Shown piece after piece: positions 2,452-21,760 of a stretch of DNA of 64,000 bases; the stretch's first letter is position 1, and every line of letters begins with the position of its first letter. The notes beneath the pieces are model-generated. The model searched no databases. It saw only the letters and a program-made list of their open reading frames with translations, and was not told the DNA's origin. This stretch comes from Bryobacterales bacterium F-183 (GTDB lineage Bacteria > Acidobacteriota > Terriglobia > Bryobacterales > Bryobacteraceae), in the NCBI GenBank assembly GCA_016865505.2, contig AP025252.1, positions 3,968,001 through 4,032,000 on the forward strand, written 5' to 3'. Position numbers and translations under genes: made by a program.

Positions 2452-3477
2452 TTAGCAGATGTGCGCGCCCATGGTTTGGACGTGGATCGCGTAGAGGGAT
2501 TGGCTGGCGGTCATAAAAAGGCGGTTGCGGCGGGGGCCACCGAAGCAGACGTTGGAGCAGTTCTCAGGCAGGCGAATCACGCCGATGCGTTCGCCAGACG
2601 GCGCGATGATCTGCACGCCGGGTCTGGCACCGCCCCAGACGTTGCCGTCGACGTCGCAACGGATGCCGTCGAAACCTGAGGGTGCGCCGGTGCCGGGTAC
2701 GTCCAGCTTGATGAAGAGCTTGCCTGCGGTGAGTTTGTTATCGGCGACTTCCCAGACTTTCGTTTCGCGCGCGCCGGTGTCGGCAACGTAGAGGCGCTTG
2801 TAATCCGGCGAGAAACAGAGGCCGTTGGGCGCGACCACTTCGTCGGTGACCTTGGTAATCTGCAGGGTCTTCGGGTCGATGCGGTAGACCGCTTCCTTTA
2901 CTTCTTTGGGTGCCTGATAGCCCTCGTAATTGCCGTTGATGCCGTACGGGGGATCGGTGAACCAGATGCCACCGTCGGGATGTACGACAACGTCGTTCGG
3001 GGAGTTGAGGCGCTTGCCTTCGAACTTGTCGGCAAGGACGGTGATGGTGCCGTTGATCTCGTAACGTACGATGCGGCGGCCGCCGTGTTCACAGGAGATT
3101 TGCCGCCCTTCGTAATCGAACGTGTTGCCGTTGCTGTAGCCCGCGGGGTTGCGGAAGGTGGTGACGCGGCTGTCGTCCTCAATCCAACGTAGCTGGGTGT
3201 TGGCGGGGATGTCGCTCCAGACGAGGAATTTGCCGGCACCGTTCCAGGCGGGTCCTTCTGCCCATGAGGTTCCGACATAGAGGCGCTTCATAGCCGTGTT
3301 GCCGATCATGTAGCGACGGAACTTGGGGTCGAGCGCGATGACGTCGGGGTCAGGGTACTGGACGGGGTTGGTGTTGGTCCAGTCGCGCGGGGTGGGGACT
3401 GGGGAGACCGGGGGAGGCGCGCTGGTCTGGGCGGTGGCTGCTACGGCGGCGAGGCCAATGAAGCTGCGGCGGTTCAT
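2452..3477 (-). CDS. SMP-30/gluconolactonase-family lactonase, exported
   Basis: 341 residues. The start MNRRSFIGLAAVAATAQ is an RR-containing signal peptide. The mature part is a six-bladed beta-propeller of the SMP-30/gluconolactonase/LRE family. Recognisable elements are SWAEGPAW (metal-binding Glu), NSPNDVVVHPDG (metal-binding Asn), WFTDPPYG and APNGLCFSPD. These enzymes open sugar lactones using one divalent metal. The gene is divergent from 3504, with only 26 bp between starts and a palindromic TGTATACA in the gap, so the two are probably expressed together. It likely acts in periplasmic oxidation of sugars. Confidence 0.88.
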   Translation of the reverse strand: MNRRSFIGLAAVAATAQTSAPPPVSPVPTPRDWTNTNPVQYPDPDVIALDPKFRRYMIGNTAMKRLYVGTSWAEGPAWNGAGKFLVWSDIPANTQLRWIEDDSRVTTFRNPAGYSNGNTFDYEGRQISCEHGGRRIVRYEINGTITVLADKFEGKRLNSPNDVVVHPDGGIWFTDPPYGINGNYEGYQAPKEVKEAVYRIDPKTLQITKVTDEVVAPNGLCFSPDYKRLYVADTGARETKVWEVADNKLTAGKLFIKLDVPGTGAPSGFDGIRCDVDGNVWGGARPGVQIIAPSGERIGVIRLPENCSNVCFGGPRRNRLFMTASQSLYAIHVQTMGAHIC

Positions 3478-3485
3478 AGGAGTTA

Positions 3486-3493
3486 TGTATACA
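3486..3493. promoter_or_regulatory. Shared palindromic -10-like element between divergent genes
   Basis: TGTATACA is a perfect palindrome, so each strand reads TATACA, close to the sigma-70 -10 consensus. It lies 8 nt from the minus-strand ATG (3477) and 10 nt from the plus-strand ATG (3504). One element could drive both divergent genes with very short leaders. No clear -35 hexamer is visible on either side. Functional assignment is inference. Confidence 0.45.
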
Positions 3494-3503
3494 CTAGTTT
3501 GCT

Positions 3504-4505
3504 ATGAATCGCCGTCATTTCCTGGCTGTCTCTTCGTCTGCTGCTGTATTGGGTTATGCTGCGCCTGCTTTGAGCAAGCGCGAGCGGATGATGCGCTGGC
3601 TGCATGGCGAGACGTCGCCGAATTACCGGCCTGCGGCGTTCTTTCTGCATTTTGCACCTGAGTATAAGGCAGGGTCTGCGGCGGCGCAGAAGCATCTGGA
3701 GTTTTATCGCCATACGGACATGGACTTTGTGAAGGTCCAGTTCGAGCAAACGTACACGCGGCAGGAGTTTTTGCAGAAGCCGTCGGACTGGGCGAAGTTG
3801 AAGCTGGCGAAGCTCGATTTTTATGAGCCGCTGCTGCAGACGGTACGCGAGTTGGTGAAGGCGGAGAAGAAGAAGTCACTGATTGTGATGACGCTGTATT
3901 CGCCGTTTATGTGTGCGGGGCACGTGGCGAGTACGCCGTTGTTGCTGCAGCATCTGCAGGAAGATCCTGAGGCGGTGAAGAAGGGCATGGACATCCTGAC
4001 CGAGAGCCAGATGCTGTTTGTCCGGGCCTGTATTCGCGAGGGGATCGATGGGTTTTATATGTCGACGCAGGGATCGGAGGCGAAGCGGTTACCGGATCCT
4101 GCTCTGTTTGCGAAGTACGTGAAGCCGTACGATCTGGTGGCGATGAAGGAAGCGGCGACGAAGTGTCCGTTCAACATCCTGCATGTGTGCGACTATCATG
4201 CGCCGTACGCGAACTACGACGTCGTCGCGGATTATCCGGGGCAAGTGGTGAACTGCAACACGCAGTTGACGGGCGGTGAGATGGCGGTGCCGGAGATTGC
4301 CAAGGTGTTCCGGAAGCCGTTCATGGGCGGACTGGACCGTCACGCGATTCTTGCGAAGGGTACGCCGGCGGAGGTGGAAGCGGAGATCCGGCGTGTGGTT
4401 CGCAATGCGCCGCAGCAGATGATTTTGGGGGCGGATTGTACGGTGGATGCGAATACGCCTTGGGATCGCCTGAAGCACGCGATCGCCGTGGCGCACTCGC
4501 TATGA
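3504..4505 (+). CDS. Uroporphyrinogen decarboxylase (URO-D)-like protein, exported
   Basis: 333 residues; starts [23 protein letters not shown], a Tat/Sec-type leader. The mature part has the URO-D TIM-barrel pattern shared with cobamide methyltransferases such as MtaA/Cmu[10 protein letters not shown] near the N-terminus, an [16 protein letters not shown] segment and a terminal [12 protein letters not shown] region. True HemE is cytoplasmic and has different substrate arginines, so haem synthesis is unlikely. The leader and the neighbouring lactonase suggest a role in an exported catabolic route, but the substrate is unknown. Its 3' end overlaps the convergent DUF2200 gene by 6 bp. Confidence 0.72.
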
Positions 4506-7362: not shown

Positions 7363-8245
7363 CGGCAACGATGATGGCTAAGCCGATGAGCGTCTGCTGC
7401 AGGTAGGGGTTGATGCCGAGCAGATCGCTGCCGTTGGAGAGCAGGCCCATGATGAAGGCACCGATCAACGTGCCAAGAACCGTGCCTTCACCTCCGCGGA
7501 GGCTGCCTCCACCGATGACGACTGCGGCGATGGCTTGGAGTTCGTAGCCCTGGCCTGCGGTGGGCTGGCCGGTCATCAGACGTGAGGCTTCGATCATAGC
7601 GGCGAGGCCAGTGAGCAGGCCTGCGATGGCGTAGACGAAGGTCAAGTGGAAGGACACGGGTACACCGGCGTAGTAGGCGGCGTCCGGGTTGGAGCCGATG
7701 GCGAAGGCGTAGCGGCCGAGCTTGGTGTATTCGAGTACGAAGTGCATGGCCACGGCGCAGACTACGAGGATCCAGAGTACGAGTGGAAGGCCGAGCAAAG
7801 TTCCGGTGGCGAGGAAACTGAAGCCTTCGGGTACGCCGGAAGCGGGGAGGCCGTTGGAGATCGTCAGGGTCATGCCGCGGATGACGCCGAGCATACCGAG
7901 GGTGACGATGAACGGGTTGATCTTGAGGCGAGTGATGAGGAAGCCGTTGATGAGCCCGCAGGTGGTGCCGACGGTGAGGCCGATCAGGATCGCCATGGGG
8001 ATCGAATAGCCTGCTTCCATGGCCTTGGCGCCGAGGAAGCCGGAGAGGGCGAGGATGGCGCCGACCGAAAGATCAATGCCCGAGGTGACGATGATGAGGG
8101 TCATGCCGAGGGCGATGATGTTGATGACGGCGGTTTGACGGACGACCGTGGACAGGTTGAGATGGGTCAGGAAGTTGGGGGTCGCGATGGAGAGCGACAC
8201 GAATAGCGTGATGAGCGTCAGAAACGGAAGCAGGCGCTGCAACAT
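7322..8245 (-). CDS. Sugar ABC transporter permease (RbsC/BPD_transp_2 family)
   Basis: 307 residues from the ATG at 8245, about nine predicted membrane segments. Family signatures: GMTLIIVTSGIDLSVGAILALSGF, INPFIVTLGMLGVIRGM, GRYAFAIGSNPDAAYYAGV (the EAA-like loop contacting the ATPase) and AIAAVVIGGGSLRGGEGT. These belong to ribose/galactose/xylose-type importers. It starts 7 bp after the end of the ATPase gene. No periplasmic binding protein adjoins; a candidate is at 39683-40651. Confidence 0.9.
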   Translation of the reverse strand: MLQRLLPFLTLITLFVSLSIATPNFLTHLNLSTVVRQTAVINIIALGMTLIIVTSGIDLSVGAILALSGFLGAKAMEAGYSIPMAILIGLTVGTTCGLINGFLITRLKINPFIVTLGMLGVIRGMTLTISNGLPASGVPEGFSFLATGTLLGLPLVLWILVVCAVAMHFVLEYTKLGRYAFAIGSNPDAAYYAGVPVSFHLTFVYAIAGLLTGLAAMIEASRLMTGQPTAGQGYELQAIAAVVIGGGSLRGGEGTVLGTLIGAFIMGLLSNGSDLLGINPYLQQTLIGLAIIVAVTLDELRKRRLPK

Positions 8246-15428: not shown

Positions 15429-17663
15429 ATGACGGGCGAATACTCTTGTCCCGTGGCATTTTCCGTACTTGCTGTCCTGCCGTTGCTGTTGCAAGAGCCG
15501 ACTCAAACGATTGAACCTGTCAAGACGACGGTGACCGTTACTGGTACCCGGAGTCCGATGGAGATTGATAAATCTCCGGTGTCGACATCGCTGGTGACGC
15601 GGGAGGAGTTGGAGTCCCGGAACATCCGGCAGATTGACCAGGCGCTGGCGTTGATTGAAGGCGTGAACAGTTTGCGTACGAAGGGTCCTGGGGATGGGGA
15701 TTTTGGACTCGGATTGCGCGGGTTTGCGGGTCGCGGCGGGCAGTCCCGCACGTTGATTCTGGTGGACGGGCAGCCGGTGAACAACAGCTATATCGGCAAT
15801 GTGAACTGGTCTGCGTTTGCGGTGAGTGAGATGGAGCGAGTGGAAGTAGCGCGCGGGCCTTTCTCGTCGTTGTACGGCGGCAATGCAATGGGCGGCGTGG
15901 TCAATATGATTACGCGACCGGTGGACAAGCGGCACTTTGAAGTGTTCGGCCAGTTGGGGAATCGCGATACGACGAATTACTCGATTCGTGCCACGGACCG
16001 GTTCTTCGACAAGCTGGGGCTGAGCGTCGGGTACACGCGGTTTCAGACCGGTGGGTATTCGCCGCAAGAGGTACTGCGTGCGGCGGCCACGGGGACTACG
16101 GGTACGTTTGTGACGGGTGTGACGCGGTGGCTGACGCCGACGGGCGGCACGACGTATCAGGTGGGGCGCAGGGGGGATAACTGGTTTGCGCAAGAGGCTT
16201 GGCGGTTCCGCGGGGAGTATACGTTTTCCCCGAAGGTGTTTGCGAGCTTGCAGTACATCCGGCAAGGGCGGATGGAGGGCTGGGATGCGTACACGACCTC
16301 GCTGCGCGATACGGCCGGGAATCCGATTGATAACGGCGCGGTGCTGTTCAACGACGGTGGTGTCACGCGGCGTTTGACGGTGACGCCGGCGAACTTTATT
16401 GGTACGCCGACGGGTGCGTTGCAGAACATCCTGCAGGGGCAGGTGCTGGCGACGTTGAGTACGCGGTGGAATATGCGCGTGGCTGCGGGCGTGATGCGAA
16501 GTCCGGGGGACTGGTACGTGACGCCGGGTGCGAATGCGACGCTTCGCGATGGGACGGGGTCCTACGTTAACCAGACGAATCAGGGCGTGTACGGCAACAT
16601 TCAAACGACGTGGCAGGGGAGCGGGCAGGCGCTGGTGTTTGGTACGGAGACGCGGCATGACCGGGCGCGGATTGCGGGGCAGACGGTGCCGAATTACGCG
16701 ATTCGCGATAACGGCGCGCCGTACGATACACAGGCTCGGGGCAAGGCGATCAACCAGGCCGGATACGCGCAGTATCAACGGACGTTTGGCGAGCGGATGA
16801 ACATTGTTGCCGGTGGACGGTATGACTATTGGCGGACGTACGAGGGTGCGAATCAGACGGGGCTGACGAGTCCGCTGGTGCCGTATCCGAATCGCGAGAC
16901 GAATTCGTTTACGGGTAAGGTGGCGGGGACGTACACGCTGCCGGGGAACTGGCTGGTGCGCGGGAGTGTCGGTAACGCGTTCCGCAATCCGAGTGTGTAC
17001 GAACTGTATCGCGACCTGGTGTTGTCGGGGATTCTGTTCCTGGCCAATCCGCAGGTGCAGCCGGAGAAGCTGTTTGCGGTGGAGGCGGGGGTGCAGAAGC
17101 AGTTTGCGCGCGGGCACAGGTTCGAAGCGTCGCTCTTTCAGAACAACGTGACGGACTTGATTTACCGTACGACGGACTTTGTGGCGGACCCGACGGGGAA
17201 TCTGCGGCGGCTGACGAATGCCGGGCAGGGAAGGACGCGAGGGGCCGAGGTCGCGCTGCGGCAGCAGGTGCTGAGCTGGTTGCAGTTCCGGCAGACGTAC
17301 ACGTATACGCAGTCTGTGATTACGCGGAACGATGCGTTGCCGGCCACGATCGGGCGGCGGTTGCCGTACGTGCCGCTGCATACGGTGACGTATTTGGCAA
17401 CGGCTGCGCGGAACAAATGGTCTGCTACGTGGGCCGGCCGGTATGTGACGAATGTCTTTACCAACGATGTGAATTCCGATGTCGTGCGCGCGGTGCCGGG
17501 CAGCTACAACCTGTTCTTTGAGATGGACGCGACGGTGACGTATCAGGCGACGCGGCGGATTTCGTTTGTCGCCAATGCGGACAATCTGCTGGGGCGGCGG
17601 TATTACATGTTCTCGCTGACGCCGGGGCGTAGCGTGTTCGGCGGTGTCCGGTTCCGGATGTAA
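15429..17663 (+). CDS. TonB-dependent outer-membrane receptor (BtuB/haem-receptor-like)
   Basis: 744 residues. A hydrophobic leader is followed by a TonB-box-like EPVKTTVTVTGTR, a plug domain (SPVSTSLVTREELESR, LRGFAGRGG, LILVDGQPVNN, VEVARGPFSSLYGGNAMGGVVN) and a beta-barrel of about 22 strands ending GRSVFGGVRFRM. It has no N-terminal carboxypeptidase-like domain, unlike the big acidobacterial SusC-like receptors. The substrate is probably a metallo-tetrapyrrole, since the next gene 5 bp downstream is a CobN-family chelatase. GTG 15453, 8 nt after AATACT (15439-15444), is an alternative start. No cobalamin riboswitch fits in the 86-bp upstream gap. Confidence 0.92.
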   Translation: MTGEYSCPVAFSVLAVLPLLLQEPTQTIEPVKTTVTVTGTRSPMEIDKSPVSTSLVTREELESRNIRQIDQALALIEGVNSLRTKGPGDGDFGLGLRGFAGRGGQSRTLILVDGQPVNNSYIGNVNWSAFAVSEMERVEVARGPFSSLYGGNAMGGVVNMITRPVDKRHFEVFGQLGNRDTTNYSIRATDRFFDKLGLSVGYTRFQTGGYSPQEVLRAAATGTTGTFVTGVTRWLTPTGGTTYQVGRRGDNWFAQEAWRFRGEYTFSPKVFASLQYIRQGRMEGWDAYTTSLRDTAGNPIDNGAVLFNDGGVTRRLTVTPANFIGTPTGALQNILQGQVLATLSTRWNMRVAAGVMRSPGDWYVTPGANATLRDGTGSYVNQTNQGVYGNIQTTWQGSGQALVFGTETRHDRARIAGQTVPNYAIRDNGAPYDTQARGKAINQAGYAQYQRTFGERMNIVAGGRYDYWRTYEGANQTGLTSPLVPYPNRETNSFTGKVAGTYTLPGNWLVRGSVGNAFRNPSVYELYRDLVLSGILFLANPQVQPEKLFAVEAGVQKQFARGHRFEASLFQNNVTDLIYRTTDFVADPTGNLRRLTNAGQGRTRGAEVALRQQVLSWLQFRQTYTYTQSVITRNDALPATIGRRLPYVPLHTVTYLATAARNKWSATWAGRYVTNVFTNDVNSDVVRAVPGSYNLFFEMDATVTYQATRRISFVANADNLLGRRYYMFSLTPGRSVFGGVRFRM

Positions 17664-17668
17664 TTGCC

Positions 17669-20600
17669 ATGCGAACCCTGCCTTTGCTGGTTCTGGCGTG
17701 CGTGAGTGCGAGCTTTGCCGCCGATGTTCCGAATGCCGTATTTGTGATGCGGAACTCGCAGGTGGCTCCTGCTGCGATGCGGCAGTTTCGCGCGGAGCTA
17801 AAGGGGCCTTGCGACTGCGAGATCGTCAACGAGAATGTGTCTGCCGAGCGACTGGCGAAGGCGAGGGTCCTGTTTTTGGAGCATCCGTCGCCGCAGTTTC
17901 TGGACCGGATGCGCGATGTGTTGGTGCCGCTGGCAAAGCGCGGGTCCGTGAAGGTGGTGACGGACGTCGCGGAGACGGTGCAGCGGGCGTGGGATATGGA
18001 TCTGCCAGCGGGGATCGCGCGGCGGATGATGCCGTACTGGCAGGGCGGCGGGCAGGCCAACATGGTGGGCTTCTTTCAGGTGGCGTATCAGGAGGCGGGC
18101 GGTACCCAGCAGTTGGCGATCGCAAAGCCGGTGGAGCAGCCGCGGTTGGGTGTGTATCATCCGAAGGCGCCGCAGACGTACGGCAGCTTGTCGAGCTATC
18201 TGGCGTGGTACCGGAAGGCGAATCCGAGTCTTCAAAAGCTTGCGGTGGTAACGTTCTTTCCCACGCAATTGCATAAGGCGGACATGGCGCATATCGATGC
18301 GCTGTTGTTGGCCTTAGAGAAGCAGGGGCTGGCTGCGGCCGGGGTGTTTGGGTGGCCGCACAATACGACGGAGGCGATATACGACGCGCCGATTTCGGTG
18401 ATGTTGAGTACGACGCTGGGGTTGTCGAGGCCGGAAGATGCGGTACTGCTGGAGAAGCAGAACGTGCATGTGATCGGGTTGATGACGACTCGCGATACCA
18501 ACGAGCAATGGGCGAGTTCTGAGCGCGGTGTGACGCCGGAGCGCGTGTCGACATCGTTGTCCGAGCCCGAACGCAATGGCGCTACCGATCCGATTTTGTT
18601 TGCGACTACCGAGACCAACGCCGATGGCATGAGCGTCACGATGCCGATTGGCGAGCGCGTGGAGATGGCCGCAAAGCGGGCTCGCCGCTGGGTGGTGCTG
18701 CGCGATAAACCGAATCATGAAAAGCGGCTGGCGATGCTGTACTACAACAATCCGCCGGGCAAAGGGAACATTGGGGCGAGCTATTTGAACATCGCGCCGA
18801 GCTTGCGGAATGTACTGGAGACGTTGCGGCAGGAAGGGTATTTGGTTGGGAACAGCCTGCCGTCTGCAGATCAGATTCTCGATCAGTTGGAGAAGACCGG
18901 GCGGAACATCGAAACCTGGGCGCCGGGTGAGTTGGACAAGATGCTGTCCCAAGGCGGGGTGACGCTGCTGCCGATGGCGACGTATAGGCAATGGTTCCGG
19001 GAGTTGCCGGAGCGGTTCCGGCGGGACATCAATGCGCGATGGGGCGAGCCGGAGAAAGCGTCCCTGATGACGTGGTCTGCGCCGGATGGGCGGAAGTTCT
19101 TTGTGATTCCGGGGATCCGCCTGGGGAACGTGTTCCTGGGGCCGCAGCTATTGCGGTCTTCGTTTGCGGAGTACACGAACGTGCAGCATAGCGGTACGCT
19201 GCCGCCGCATCACGGGTACGTCGCGTCGTATCTGTACTACCGGCATCAGTTGCAGGCGGATGCGGTGCTGCATATGGGACGGCACGGGACTTTGGAGTGG
19301 CTGCCGGGGAAGAATGCGGGTCAGGCTGGGTGGGATGCGTCGGAGGCTATTCTGGGTGATCTGCCGAACTTGTATTACTACATCATGGACGGCGATGGCG
19401 AGGCGATACAGGCGCGGCGGAGGTCCGCGGCGGTGGACCTTTCGCACCTGACGCCGATGTTGGTGCGTACGGGGAAGGAAGCGCGGTTTGCGGCGTTAGA
19501 AGAAGCGGTGTCGCGCTGGAAGGATAGCGAGGAGACGTCGCCGTTGTTGGCCGCGGAGTACAAGAAGACGGTAGTGCAGGAGGCGGCGAAGCTGGGGATC
19601 GATAAGCAACTGGGCGGGGAGATCACGGCGGATCGCATCGAGGAGTTTTTGGAGGCGACCGAGGATGCGCCGATTCCGTTGGGGCTGCCGACGCTGGGTG
19701 TCGCGCCATCGGAGGACCGTCAGGTAGCGGCGGCGCAGACGTTCTTTGAGTCCGCATTTCAGCCGCAGGAGATGAAGCATCTCAATCCGGTATGGGTACG
19801 CGAGGTGTTTGACGGGAAGATCCCGCAGGTGCCGGCGGATAGCCCGGTGCGCGAGAAGATTTTGAAGAATATTGACGAGCTCCAAGGGTGGCTTGGCCGC
19901 CTGCGTGAGTCGCCGCAGCGCGAACTATTGGCGATGGTGCGCGTGCTGCGCGGCGAATACCTGCCAAGTGGGATCGTGGGGGATCCGCTTGGTGTTCCCG
20001 GCGCTTTGCCTTCTGGCCGGAATCTGCATCAGGGTGACCCGGCGCGGCTTCCGACCAAGGCGGCGTGGGAAGTCGGGAAGAGGTTAGCGAAGCAGTTGCT
20101 GGAGCGTCATAAGGCGAAGAACGGGCGTTATCCGGAGCGGATTTCGATGGTGCTGTGGCAGGGTGAGACGGGCCGGCATCAGGGCGCGATGGAAGCGCAG
20201 GCGATGTACCTGATGGGGGTGGAGCCCGAGTGGAACGCGCGCGGCGCGATTGACCGGTTGAAGCTGATCCCGGAGGGGCAATTGGGCGGGCGTCCGCGCG
20301 TGAATGTGCTGTTCACGGTGAGCGGGCTGTACCGCGATGGGCTGGCGGACAAAATCATTATGCTGGACCGGGCGTCGCGTCTGGCAGCGTCGGCTGGCGA
20401 CAATCCGATTCGGCGGCAGACTCGGGAGATCCAGAAGGAACTGATGTCGAAAGGCATGTCGCAAGAGGAAGCCGAGGAGATGGCTGGGGCGCGCGTGTTT
20501 ACGACAGCGCCGGGTGCGTACGGCTTTGGGCTATCGCAGTTTGTGGAGCAGAGCCGGGATAAAGACGAGCCGGAGACGATGGCGCAGCTGTACCTGTCGA

Positions 20601-21577
20601 AGATGAACTTCGCGTACACGGAGAAGAGCTGGGGCAAGAGTACGCCGAAGCTGCTGGATCAGCAGTTGCGGGGGAACGAGACGATTCTGCATAGCCGGTC
20701 TTCGAATCTGTACGGCGCGGTGGACAACGACGATGTGTACCAGTGGATGGGCGGATTGCGCGTTGCGTCCGAATCGGTGGGGGCGAAGCCAGAGTTGCTG
20801 ATCAACAATATGCGGCGGCCGGGGCAGGAGAAGCTGCAGGATGCGCGGGGCTTTATTGCGACGGAATTGAATGCTCGGAACTGGAATCCACGGTGGATTG
20901 CCGAGATGCAGAAGGAAGGGTATTCGGGTGGGCGGCTGATGGCGCGTACGATGGAGAACCTGTACGGCTGGCAGGCGACTGCGCCGGAGGCTTTGGCGCC
21001 GGAAGTTTGGAAGAAGATGTACGACGTGTATGTCGCCGATGAGTACAAGCTGGGGATCCGGGAGTTCTTGCGGAAGTCGAATCCGGCGGCGATGCAGAAT
21101 ATGGTGGCGCGTCTGCTGGAGATCGACCGGCAGGGTGTGTACCGGTTTGCGGCGGAAGATAAGGCCGCGCTGCTTCGCGAGTACGTCAAGACGGTGTCGC
21201 AGACGGGGCTGGCGTGTTCGGCCAATATCTGCGGGAACCGGCGGTTGCAGGAGAACATTACGCGAGAGGTCACGCAGACCTTGGGAGCGAAAGCCGGGCA
21301 GGAACTTCGGGCGGAGTTACAGCAGGCGTGGAAGAAGCCTTCGCCTGTCGCCTCGGCGTCAGCCTCGGCGGGACCTTCGAGCAAGCAGTGGAAGATGCCT
21401 CCGCCGATGAAGATCGTGCGGGCGGCAGAGTTGGTACGGCGGGTGGTACGCGAGAATCCGCTGGCGGTGTTGGGCGTAGCGTCTGCGACGGTGGGCCTGG
21501 GTGTGGTGCTCGGGCTGCTGCGGCGGCGACGCCGGATGGGTTGGGCGGCGCTGGAACTGGCGGAATCCGCTCGATAA
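17669..21577 (+). CDS. Exported, membrane-anchored CobN/BchH/HmuS-like tetrapyrrole chelatase (or dechelatase)
   Basis: 1302 residues. CobN motifs are present in order: NPPGKGNIGASYLN (about 355), HMGRHGTLEWLPGK (535-548), GRNLHQGDPARLPTKAAWE (about 785), LWQGETGRHQGAMEAQA (828-844), VNVLFTVSGLYRDGLADK and RVFTTAPGAYGFGLSQF. Unlike aerobic cobaltochelatase CobN, it has a cleavable-type signal peptide (MRTLPLLVLACVSASFA) and a C-terminal membrane helix (about 1262-1285) followed by RRRRR, so it should sit in the periplasm, anchored to the inner membrane. CobS/CobT partners are absent. CobN-like proteins paired with TonB receptors occur in Bacteroidota haem loci (HmuS), where metal removal from porphyrin has been proposed; that role here is inference. 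Insertion of metal is the alternative. Confidence 0.85.
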   Translation: MRTLPLLVLACVSASFAADVPNAVFVMRNSQVAPAAMRQFRAELKGPCDCEIVNENVSAERLAKARVLFLEHPSPQFLDRMRDVLVPLAKRGSVKVVTDVAETVQRAWDMDLPAGIARRMMPYWQGGGQANMVGFFQVAYQEAGGTQQLAIAKPVEQPRLGVYHPKAPQTYGSLSSYLAWYRKANPSLQKLAVVTFFPTQLHKADMAHIDALLLALEKQGLAAAGVFGWPHNTTEAIYDAPISVMLSTTLGLSRPEDAVLLEKQNVHVIGLMTTRDTNEQWASSERGVTPERVSTSLSEPERNGATDPILFATTETNADGMSVTMPIGERVEMAAKRARRWVVLRDKPNHEKRLAMLYYNNPPGKGNIGASYLNIAPSLRNVLETLRQEGYLVGNSLPSADQILDQLEKTGRNIETWAPGELDKMLSQGGVTLLPMATYRQWFRELPERFRRDINARWGEPEKASLMTWSAPDGRKFFVIPGIRLGNVFLGPQLLRSSFAEYTNVQHSGTLPPHHGYVASYLYYRHQLQADAVLHMGRHGTLEWLPGKNAGQAGWDASEAILGDLPNLYYYIMDGDGEAIQARRRSAAVDLSHLTPMLVRTGKEARFAALEEAVSRWKDSEETSPLLAAEYKKTVVQEAAKLGIDKQLGGEITADRIEEFLEATEDAPIPLGLPTLGVAPSEDRQVAAAQTFFESAFQPQEMKHLNPVWVREVFDGKIPQVPADSPVREKILKNIDELQGWLGRLRESPQRELLAMVRVLRGEYLPSGIVGDPLGVPGALPSGRNLHQGDPARLPTKAAWEVGKRLAKQLLERHKAKNGRYPERISMVLWQGETGRHQGAMEAQAMYLMGVEPEWNARGAIDRLKLIPEGQLGGRPRVNVLFTVSGLYRDGLADKIIMLDRASRLAASAGDNPIRRQTREIQKELMSKGMSQEEAEEMAGARVFTTAPGAYGFGLSQFVEQSRDKDEPETMAQLYLSKMNFAYTEKSWGKSTPKLLDQQLRGNETILHSRSSNLYGAVDNDDVYQWMGGLRVASESVGAKPELLINNMRRPGQEKLQDARGFIATELNARNWNPRWIAEMQKEGYSGGRLMARTMENLYGWQATAPEALAPEVWKKMYDVYVADEYKLGIREFLRKSNPAAMQNMVARLLEIDRQGVYRFAAEDKAALLREYVKTVSQTGLACSANICGNRRLQENITREVTQTLGAKAGQELRAELQQAWKKPSPVASASASAGPSSKQWKMPPPMKIVRAAELVRRVVRENPLAVLGVASATVGLGVVLGLLRRRRRMGWAALELAESAR

Positions 21578-21622
21578 AGGTACGTGGAGCGATTCTGGCA
21601 CGCCGATTGCAGGTACCTTTGC

Positions 21623-21760
21623 ATGGCTCAGCCAGATCGCCCCAACTTCACATTACCGGCCCGAATTTTCTTCGGTGCGATTGCTTTGTTGATGATTTAT
21701 TTGTTGCTTCGTTTCTTTAGTTTCTTGCCCGGCGGTTTCTTGCCCGGCACTGCCTATTGA
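21623..21760 (+). CDS. Small single-span membrane protein, 45 residues
   Basis: An unbroken frame starting ATG at 21623 and ending TGA at 21760. It reads MAQPDRPNFTLPARIFFGAI, a strongly hydrophobic stretch (ALLMIYLLLRFFSFL), then PGGFLPGTAY. One transmembrane helix, probably residues 14-32, with a polar N-terminus. It lies 45 bp downstream of the chelatase gene on the same strand, with a weak AGG before the start, so it may be the third gene of the receptor/chelatase operon, perhaps a small partner subunit. No family recognised. The last 7 bp overlap the convergent DUF3224 gene. Confidence 0.55.
   Translation: MAQPDRPNFTLPARIFFGAIALLMIYLLLRFFSFLPGGFLPGTAY

Follow-up and report, generated by a model that had tools for sequence, protein, structure and literature searches.

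The window described here is the whole 64,000-nucleotide stretch of the soil bacterium Bryobacterales bacterium F-183 that was analyzed (contig AP025252.1, positions 3,968,001 to 4,032,000, forward strand). The system in question is a two-gene unit at window positions 15429-21577, in which a gene for a TonB-dependent receptor is followed by a gene for an exported CobN-like chelatase homologue. The features of the locus are listed below in window coordinates.

15429..17663, plus strand: TonB-dependent receptor, 744 aa (Pfam Plug and TonB_dep_Rec_b-barrel)
17669..21577, plus strand: class I chelatase homologue (CobN/ChlH/HmuS superfamily), 1302 aa, by sequence exported and membrane-anchored (PF02514, best PDB match, tree)
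17669..17722, plus strand: signal-peptide-like segment, residues 1-18 (hydropathy peak 2.41; cleavage site placed by eye)
19283..19285, plus strand: His539, equivalent of HmuS His538 (kept in 52 of 52 aligned proteins)
20696..20743, plus strand: domain V motif R1010-Q1025, RSSNLYGAVDNDDVYQ (alignment)
21215..21232, plus strand: cysteine pair C1183-x4-C1188 (alignment)
21461..21535, plus strand: C-terminal hydrophobic helix 1265-1281 with RRRRR tail 1285-1289 (Kyte-Doolittle 2.29)
21623..21760, plus strand: hydrophobic open reading frame (ORF) of 45 residues (translation)

The receptor stop and the chelatase start are separated by 5 bp. An earlier note on this DNA had described the receptor, the 5-bp gap and a 1302-residue CobN-family protein with signal peptide, helix and RRRRR tail, and this description holds when checked by ORFs, Pfam and hydropathy. 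For the receptor, 27 NCBIfam models matched; it scores below the cut-off in all 25 that were listed, the top model being TIGR01785 TonB-hemin (144.6 bits, cut-off 316.85). As the note had stated, the locus carries no cobalamin riboswitch: the sole Rfam match in the window at gathering scores is a tRNA. BLAST detected neither an ExbB-like nor a DUF2149 gene between 9 and 30 kb of the window, and no AAA+ partner or reductase was noticed beside the pair when the ORF list was inspected by eye.

The Pfam family PF02514 (CobN-Mg_chel) spans residues 123-1160 of the chelatase (E 2e-270, 900.6 bits, cut-off 24.5) and covers profile positions 3-1085 of 1090, i.e. the full model. The best PDB sequence match is HmuS (9d26, E 2.6e-135), and the protein lies under the NCBIfam CobN equivalog cut-offs (best 774.9 versus 1248 bits). 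CobN and ChlH/BchH, which insert metals on the way to vitamin B12 and chlorophyll, work with AAA+ partners. The export and anchoring proposed in the note agree with the N-terminal and C-terminal hydropathy, which is the whole basis of the predicted topology. An AlphaFold model of residues 20-1215 reached a pLDDT of 62.1 and a pTM of 0.44, with several cleft segments below 50; Foldseek ranked HmuS, CobN and ChlH first for this model, which adds little to the sequence evidence.

Matches at E 1e-20 or better were present in 25 of 297 genomes of Acidobacteriota, and 44 of 399 genomes from the class of the host had a match at 1e-90 or better. The close type, with approximately 53% identity or more, is referred to as group A and occurs in 10 of the 399 genomes, host included. 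Stretches were fetched from 21 of the 44 matching genomes (18 plus G061, G281 and G187). From one set of 20 stretches 15 tree rows were obtained; the five dropped are L110 and L118 (repeating L005 and L003), L113 and L120 (contig ends) and L119 (broken frame). L037, which repeats L002, was dropped as well, and the near-identical L041 and L042 were both kept. Neither the CobN genes L051-L054, which are split, nor several matches in one piece entered the trees, and the reference CUP_COBW, read out of frame, is not used. The group A rows are the window, L001, L002, L005, L038, L107, L108, L109, L111 and L112; L001 comes from another collection, and an eleventh gene, truncated at a contig end in G498 (L113), was not counted.

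A maximum likelihood tree of 52 proteins was obtained by a quick search, with the Shimodaira-Hasegawa-like approximate likelihood ratio test (SH-aLRT) as the only support measure; 27 of the 52 sequences carried a flag for letter composition, and L126 one for its long branch. A single branch (SH-aLRT 100) splits 38 exported proteins from 14 cytoplasmic CobN/BchH proteins, and the window chelatase stands with the former, which bears out the claimed difference from cytoplasmic CobN. The C-terminal hydropathy peak is at least 1.44 in all 38 rows on the exported side and at most 0.73 in all 14 on the other. Prevotella, Aureibacter and L044 form the HmuS clade (SH-aLRT 100), near which L126 was placed with uncertainty. 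The ten rows of group A (SH-aLRT 100) lie outside this clade, nested in a 22-row clade (SH-aLRT 100) together with groups A2 and A3, two Bryobacter and two Cupriavidus proteins. An earlier tree of 37 rows was concordant on the exported/cytoplasmic split, the HmuS clade and the position of group A. One genome, G206, holds both an HmuS-type (L044 7316-12121) and a DNDD-type (L043 6980-11083) exported chelatase.

A receptor of the window type lies 0-10 bp upstream of the chelatase in 10 of 10 group A loci, the window included; in L005 and L109 the gap depends on a start codon later than that of the longest ORF, and in L005, where the ORF start is too early, GTG at 7998 yields a signal peptide. 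The pairing is therefore not a matter of chance, and the coupling of receptor and chelatase asserted in the note is supported. BLAST with Bryobacter queries recovered neither ExbB nor DUF2149 in the fetched group A flanks, and both were present in all eight other acidobacterial exported loci first fetched (L003, L004, L039-L044). Small exported-looking proteins adjoin the receptor or chelatase at L038 12464-12757, L111 5394-5684, L002 5158-5523 and L111 13149-13502; several such group A proteins show HxH...CxxC, and the three examined (one of L002, two of L111) had no Pfam match. The 45-residue membrane peptide, which the note had included, exists as an ORF and is not conserved: no relative was found within about 700 bp 3' of 12 related chelatase genes (nine of group A, three of A2). 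It was dropped as a component and probably lies outside the conserved system.

Residues named for HmuS in PMC12583661 were compared across the 52 rows (A 10, A2 4, A3 4, Bryobacter 2, Cupriavidus 2, HmuS 3, B 7, U 6, CobN 12, BchH 2); the role of HmuS His538 is taken from that source. The window chelatase retains His538 (as His539), Glu577, Arg1197, Ser1199, Gly1203 and Asp1208, and carries Asp1022 for His1209, Gln1025 for Glu1212, Tyr for Trp1202, Ser for Gln1198 and Gln for Ser1014. His539, Glu578 and Asp1021 are unchanged in all ten group A rows. The domain V motif combines the HmuS-like RxSNxxGA (here RSSNxYGA) with the CobN-like DNDDxxQ; the HmuS string LSLDHxxEFMGG, which contains His1209, is not matched, and the window chelatase reads AVDNDDVYQWMGG. 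Position 1022 (HmuS 1209) is His in HmuS (3/3), BchH (2/2), B (1/7) and U (1/6), and Asp in A (10/10), A2 (4/4), CobN (11/12), Bryobacter (2/2), Cupriavidus (2/2), B (6/7), U (5/6) and A3 (1/4). Position 1025 (HmuS 1212) is Gln in A (10/10), A3 (4/4), Cupriavidus (2/2) and CobN (11/12). The Met-rich insertion of HmuS domain IV is absent, the aligned window segment having 100 aa and 2 Met against 278 aa and 32 Met in Prevotella; segments of insertion length with fewer Met occur in Aureibacter (362 aa, 11 Met) and in L044 (379 aa, 4 Met). Of the axial haem ligands of HmuS, Met79 aligns with Pro73 and no His is found at 254. At the position of His267 (window 18467-18469), 21 of the 22 proteins in the window clade have His and the 30 rows outside it have Pro; His72 is shared by all ten group A and both Bryobacter rows. 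To judge from the alignment, these two histidines might serve as substitute ligands close to the place where HmuS binds haem. Towards the C terminus, 31 of 38 exported rows and 0 of 14 cytoplasmic rows have a CxxxxC pair, which agrees with a periplasmic setting. As read from the alignment, the mixture of an HmuS-like porphyrin side with a CobN-like metal side is the most telling internal evidence, and from it we infer a putative cobalt-type site.

Several relatives lie in corrinoid neighbourhoods. Of 32 chelatase genes in 26 genomes, 5 have a cobalamin riboswitch no more than 10 kb away, versus 0.26 expected, the expected value being based on rounded genome sizes, G270 and G135 being close kin, and export being unchecked for three of the 32 genes (G546:C168, G498:C179, G406:C82). 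In L124 the riboswitch lies 36 nt upstream of the chelatase frame on the same strand; the others lie just after the gene (G061), about 9 kb after it (G270, G135) or on the opposite strand (G429). CbiZ adjoins the chelatase in Bryobacter L003 and L004, and CbiZ and CbiB are divergent from the receptor-chelatase pair in L122. The exported gene is followed in Cupriavidus L057 by CobW and CobN (CobW Pfam-confirmed in L057 only) and in L058 by CobN, a ChlI-type AAA gene and a VWA gene (ChlI and VWA Pfam-confirmed in L058 only). Within group A, CobC, CobT and BluB lie 2-7 kb off on the opposite strand in L107, and in L002 a riboswitch just 3' of the chelatase leads a second receptor-like gene. Altogether 8 of the 22 clade rows have a corrinoid link (L002, L003, L004, L057, L058, L107, L122, L124), a count made at uneven scan depth and with no background rate. 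Trichlorobacter L059 has the order receptor-DUF2162-ExbB-DUF2149-chelatase-ExbB-ExbD-TonB-receptor behind two riboswitches. The note had called the set unlike the usual B12 locus; this is partly wrong, since it stands for the window but several of the relatives lie in B12 or corrinoid loci, and Trichlorobacter has a full set (ExbB, DUF2149, TonB) under a cobalamin riboswitch.

Further observations concern single loci. The CbiZ genes of L004 (12011-13201) and L003 (11962-13197) begin, by eye, with an apparent signal peptide, which suggests possible corrinoid remodelling outside the cytoplasm. The two riboswitches of L059, on a plasmid of Trichlorobacter lovleyi, stand in tandem at 3185-3651. 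On a plasmid of Runella slithyformis (L061 6362-10396), an exported chelatase, a receptor, an ExbB-like gene and DUF2149 lie within a hypF/hypC/hypD/hypE hydrogenase cluster, a location that hints at a nickel variant.

The host genome (6.28 Mb, 98.6% complete) contains no PF02514 match other than the window gene, and searches of it gave no match to CbiC, CobT/DBI_PRT (PF02277), CbiZ or DUF2149; the chelatase subunits CobS and CobT were searched by no models of their own. PF01078 has one strong match, in a 528-aa frame read as ComM, and five others at 21-27 bits; no partner of ChlI length was found. Because of the single PF02514 gene, the missing CbiC, CobT, CbiZ and DUF2149 matches and the reading of PF01078 as ComM, a role of the chelatase in corrin-ring or B12 synthesis is unlikely. 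FeoB is present. The one cobalamin riboswitch of the genome directly precedes the gene of another receptor (L056); this receptor and the one next to the Bryobacter chelatase L004 share 46% identity across 802 residues. The genome thus has a further candidate for B12 uptake.

The reading preferred here, which we hold tentatively and at somewhat less than even confidence, is that the chelatase is a periplasmic metal-tetrapyrrole de-chelatase or handler of the cobalt/corrinoid type; we infer its substrate and activity, the direction of the reaction and the source of energy or electrons. In the proposed mechanism, whose steps go beyond the operon, the predicted topology and the residue pattern, the TonB-dependent receptor would import a metal-bearing tetrapyrrole or similar metal chelate into the periplasm. 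The chelatase would be exported via its signal peptide and anchored in the inner membrane by the C-terminal helix, with the positive tail inside, and would capture the cargo in the cleft between domains III and V. There the metal might be removed or exchanged without an AAA+ partner, His539 facing Asp1022 with Gln1025 alongside, and the freed metal would enter the cell through inner-membrane carriers. Because the metal site (His539, Asp1022, Gln1025) is of the CobN type, a cobalt (corrinoid-type) or other late divalent metal compound appears the more likely cargo than haem. Key residues and relatives alike speak for cobalt (or zinc) and against haem.

A number of points weigh against this cobalt/corrinoid assignment. 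De-cobaltation of corrinoids is chemically hard, and to our knowledge no enzyme is known for it. The window locus has no riboswitch and no corrinoid gene was seen nearby; among group A loci only two of ten (L002, L107) have a corrinoid link, neither with a riboswitch upstream of the receptor, and two have a zinc-type cassette as their neighbour instead. Among the five riboswitches counted within 10 kb, that of L124 alone is in a position to govern the chelatase. The residue code has exceptions: three of four A3 rows have Glu at 1022, one B and one U row have His there, and position 1025 is looser still (acidic in four of four A2 rows, Ser in Bryobacter). The AlphaFold model is too weak for examining the cleft. 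B12 uptake by the window pair would also be redundant, since a separate receptor sits behind the cobalamin riboswitch elsewhere in the host genome.

The zinc-type cassettes lead to a serious rival, a zinc-starvation system: zinc bound in a chelate or a tetrapyrrole would enter through the receptor and be set free by the exported chelatase. In group A, L002 and L111 have as neighbours DUF3299-ABC-FtsX genes that resemble the PA4064-PA4066 operon (PA4066 being a DUF3299 protein), with a FUR-family gene also at L002 and cation-efflux and MerC genes also at L111; a DUF3299-ZrgA-ABC-FtsX cassette is present in the host too, at C1:2667403-2670429, a site distant from the window. Of the 10 group A genomes, 7 carry DUF3299 (present in G000, G344, G373, G061, G281, G521 and G498; absent from G459, G510 and G531) versus 1 of 16 other carriers, with a Fisher p of 0.0013 that overstates the association because the genomes are related, and some DUF3299 copies, two of three in the host, lie outside the cassette. 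PMC4542158, PMC9431628, PMC11761036 and PMC8456098 describe P. aeruginosa PA1922 (receptor), PA1923 (CobN-like), PA1924 and PA1925 (DUF2149) as part of the Zur regulon and strongly induced by zinc shortage, and in a 2015 transcriptome of a znuA mutant these genes were up 147-, 122-, 45- and 56-fold, respectively (PMC4542158); the window pair may work as PA1922-PA1925 perhaps does. However, the parallel with PA1923 is one of gene content and not of tree position, the FUR-family regulator of L002 reaches no NCBIfam cut-off, and no Zur-type operator was found upstream of the window receptor. In the operator search upstream of group A receptors, the best palindromes of L001 and of one L111 stretch scored above all 60 shuffles; the two are not alike, no site is shared, and the best of the window is below the shuffle mean. 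With Fur and Zur consensus strings, AT-rich Fur-like sites were seen near the starts of L108, L109, L116 and L117 only; they are uncommon there, with 2-7 equal or better positions per locus, uncorrected for the number of tries. The Zur regulon of PA1922-PA1925, the group A cassettes and the DUF3299 distribution make zinc a serious rival and zinc remains the alternative metal, although the explanation as a whole is rather unlikely.

The other explanations are less probable. Extraction of iron from haem in the periplasm by an HmuS-type de-chelatase, which we consider distinctly unlikely, would accord with HmuS as the best PDB match, the same predicted topology, the common RxSNxxGA, the presence of FeoB in the host and a receptor nearest to haem-receptor models, though below cut-off; the chelatase nevertheless lies outside the HmuS clade, lacks the Met-rich insertion and equivalents of Met79 and His254, has Asp in place of His1209, and has neither an ExbB-like (HmuU) nor a DUF2149 (HmuV) gene by BLAST between 9 and 30 kb of the window, DUF2149 being unmatched in the host genome as well. 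Haem is the less likely cargo, membership in HmuS was dropped on the sequence features and the operon, and the close kinship with haem HmuS that the note had drawn is not supported. A tetrapyrrole or corrinoid binding protein, in which the chelatase fold delivers cargo in the periplasm with no metal chemistry, would suit a pair with no AAA+ partner or reductase noticed beside it, and PMC6460266 reports that a B. fragilis btuS1 btuS2 double mutant still released protoporphyrin; the retention of His539, Glu578 and Asp1021 throughout group A makes it quite doubtful. An ordinary cytoplasmic cobaltochelatase CobN of B12 synthesis, suggested by the names (CobN or magnesium chelatase) of the matched database families, is scarcely credible for a protein with a signal peptide and an anchor, in a separate clade, under the CobN equivalog cut-offs and with no CbiC, CobT or ChlI-length partner found; it was dropped on topology, tree and pathway genes.

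The cobalt/corrinoid reading also has a broader form, which we regard as unlikely: the clade would constitute a third functional class of chelatases, periplasmic enzymes by which cobalt (or zinc) is stripped from, or swapped in, corrinoids or related tetrapyrroles, the Acidobacteriota form being a receptor plus enzyme without ExbB and DUF2149. The window clade would then be, just as improbably, the de-cobaltase counterpart of HmuS. What surprises is that the unit is reduced to two genes, that an exported protein has a metal site of the CobN type, and that relatives occur in corrinoid and zinc neighbourhoods. To go by its listings, the literature search yielded no paper about an exported CobN-like protein paired with a TonB receptor in Acidobacteriota; operon, residues and context are here described for one such cluster. 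Whether the residue at HmuS position 1209 is His or Asp tells porphyrin-type and CobN-type members apart in most cases. Soil bacteria are indicated as a place to study periplasmic handling of cobalt, zinc or corrinoids and, if the reading is true, would have an additional route for recycling scarce metals or B12.

Among known systems, HmuS of Bacteroides thetaiotaomicron is likewise an exported, inner-membrane anchored class I chelatase of full length beside a TonB receptor and shares His538 and RxSNxxGA with the window protein; it differs in clade, in the Met-rich insertion, in Met79/His254, in His1209 (here Asp) and Glu1212 (here Gln), and in its ExbB-like and DUF2149 partners, which were not found here. 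Of the hmuYRSTUV operon the window has the receptor and no ExbB-like or DUF2149 gene, HmuY and HmuT having been searched by no model. Purified HmuS with NADH performed 1-2 turnovers according to PMC12583661, which by analogy shows that demetallation in a chelatase fold is possible without AAA+ partners and gives a precedent for the note's broad proposal that a chelatase works outside the cytoplasm. Taken as a whole, the note's interpretation is partly supported. BtuS1 and BtuS2 of B. fragilis are, according to PMC6460266, predicted membrane-anchored periplasmic CobN-like proteins distinct from CobN/ChlH, with a predicted role in metalloporphyrin salvage. Their likeness to the window protein is one of description, and the window protein has the signal peptide, the membrane attachment (by hydropathy) and the tree separation from CobN/ChlH; the B. 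fragilis data imply, by analogy, that not every protein of this kind need be the de-chelatase. CobN (Mycobacterium tuberculosis 7c6o) and ChlH/BchH (4zhj) share the superfamily and His538 and differ in being cytoplasmic, without anchor and without the cysteine pair in the 14 cytoplasmic rows. PA1922-PA1925 of P. aeruginosa also have a TonB receptor and a CobN-like gene in one operon, a comparison of gene content and not of sequence, and differ in the ExbD-annotated PA1924 and the DUF2149 protein PA1925. There is also a likeness to Bryobacter L003/L004 and Cupriavidus L057/L058 (44-47% identity, the same 22-row clade, the DNDD motif and the Cys pair), of which the former differ in having ExbB, DUF2149 and CbiZ and the latter in sitting in a B12 biosynthesis locus. 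Because exported and anchored CobN-like proteins (BtuS/HmuS) and PA1922-PA1925 are already known, the window system is a variant and not a new class.

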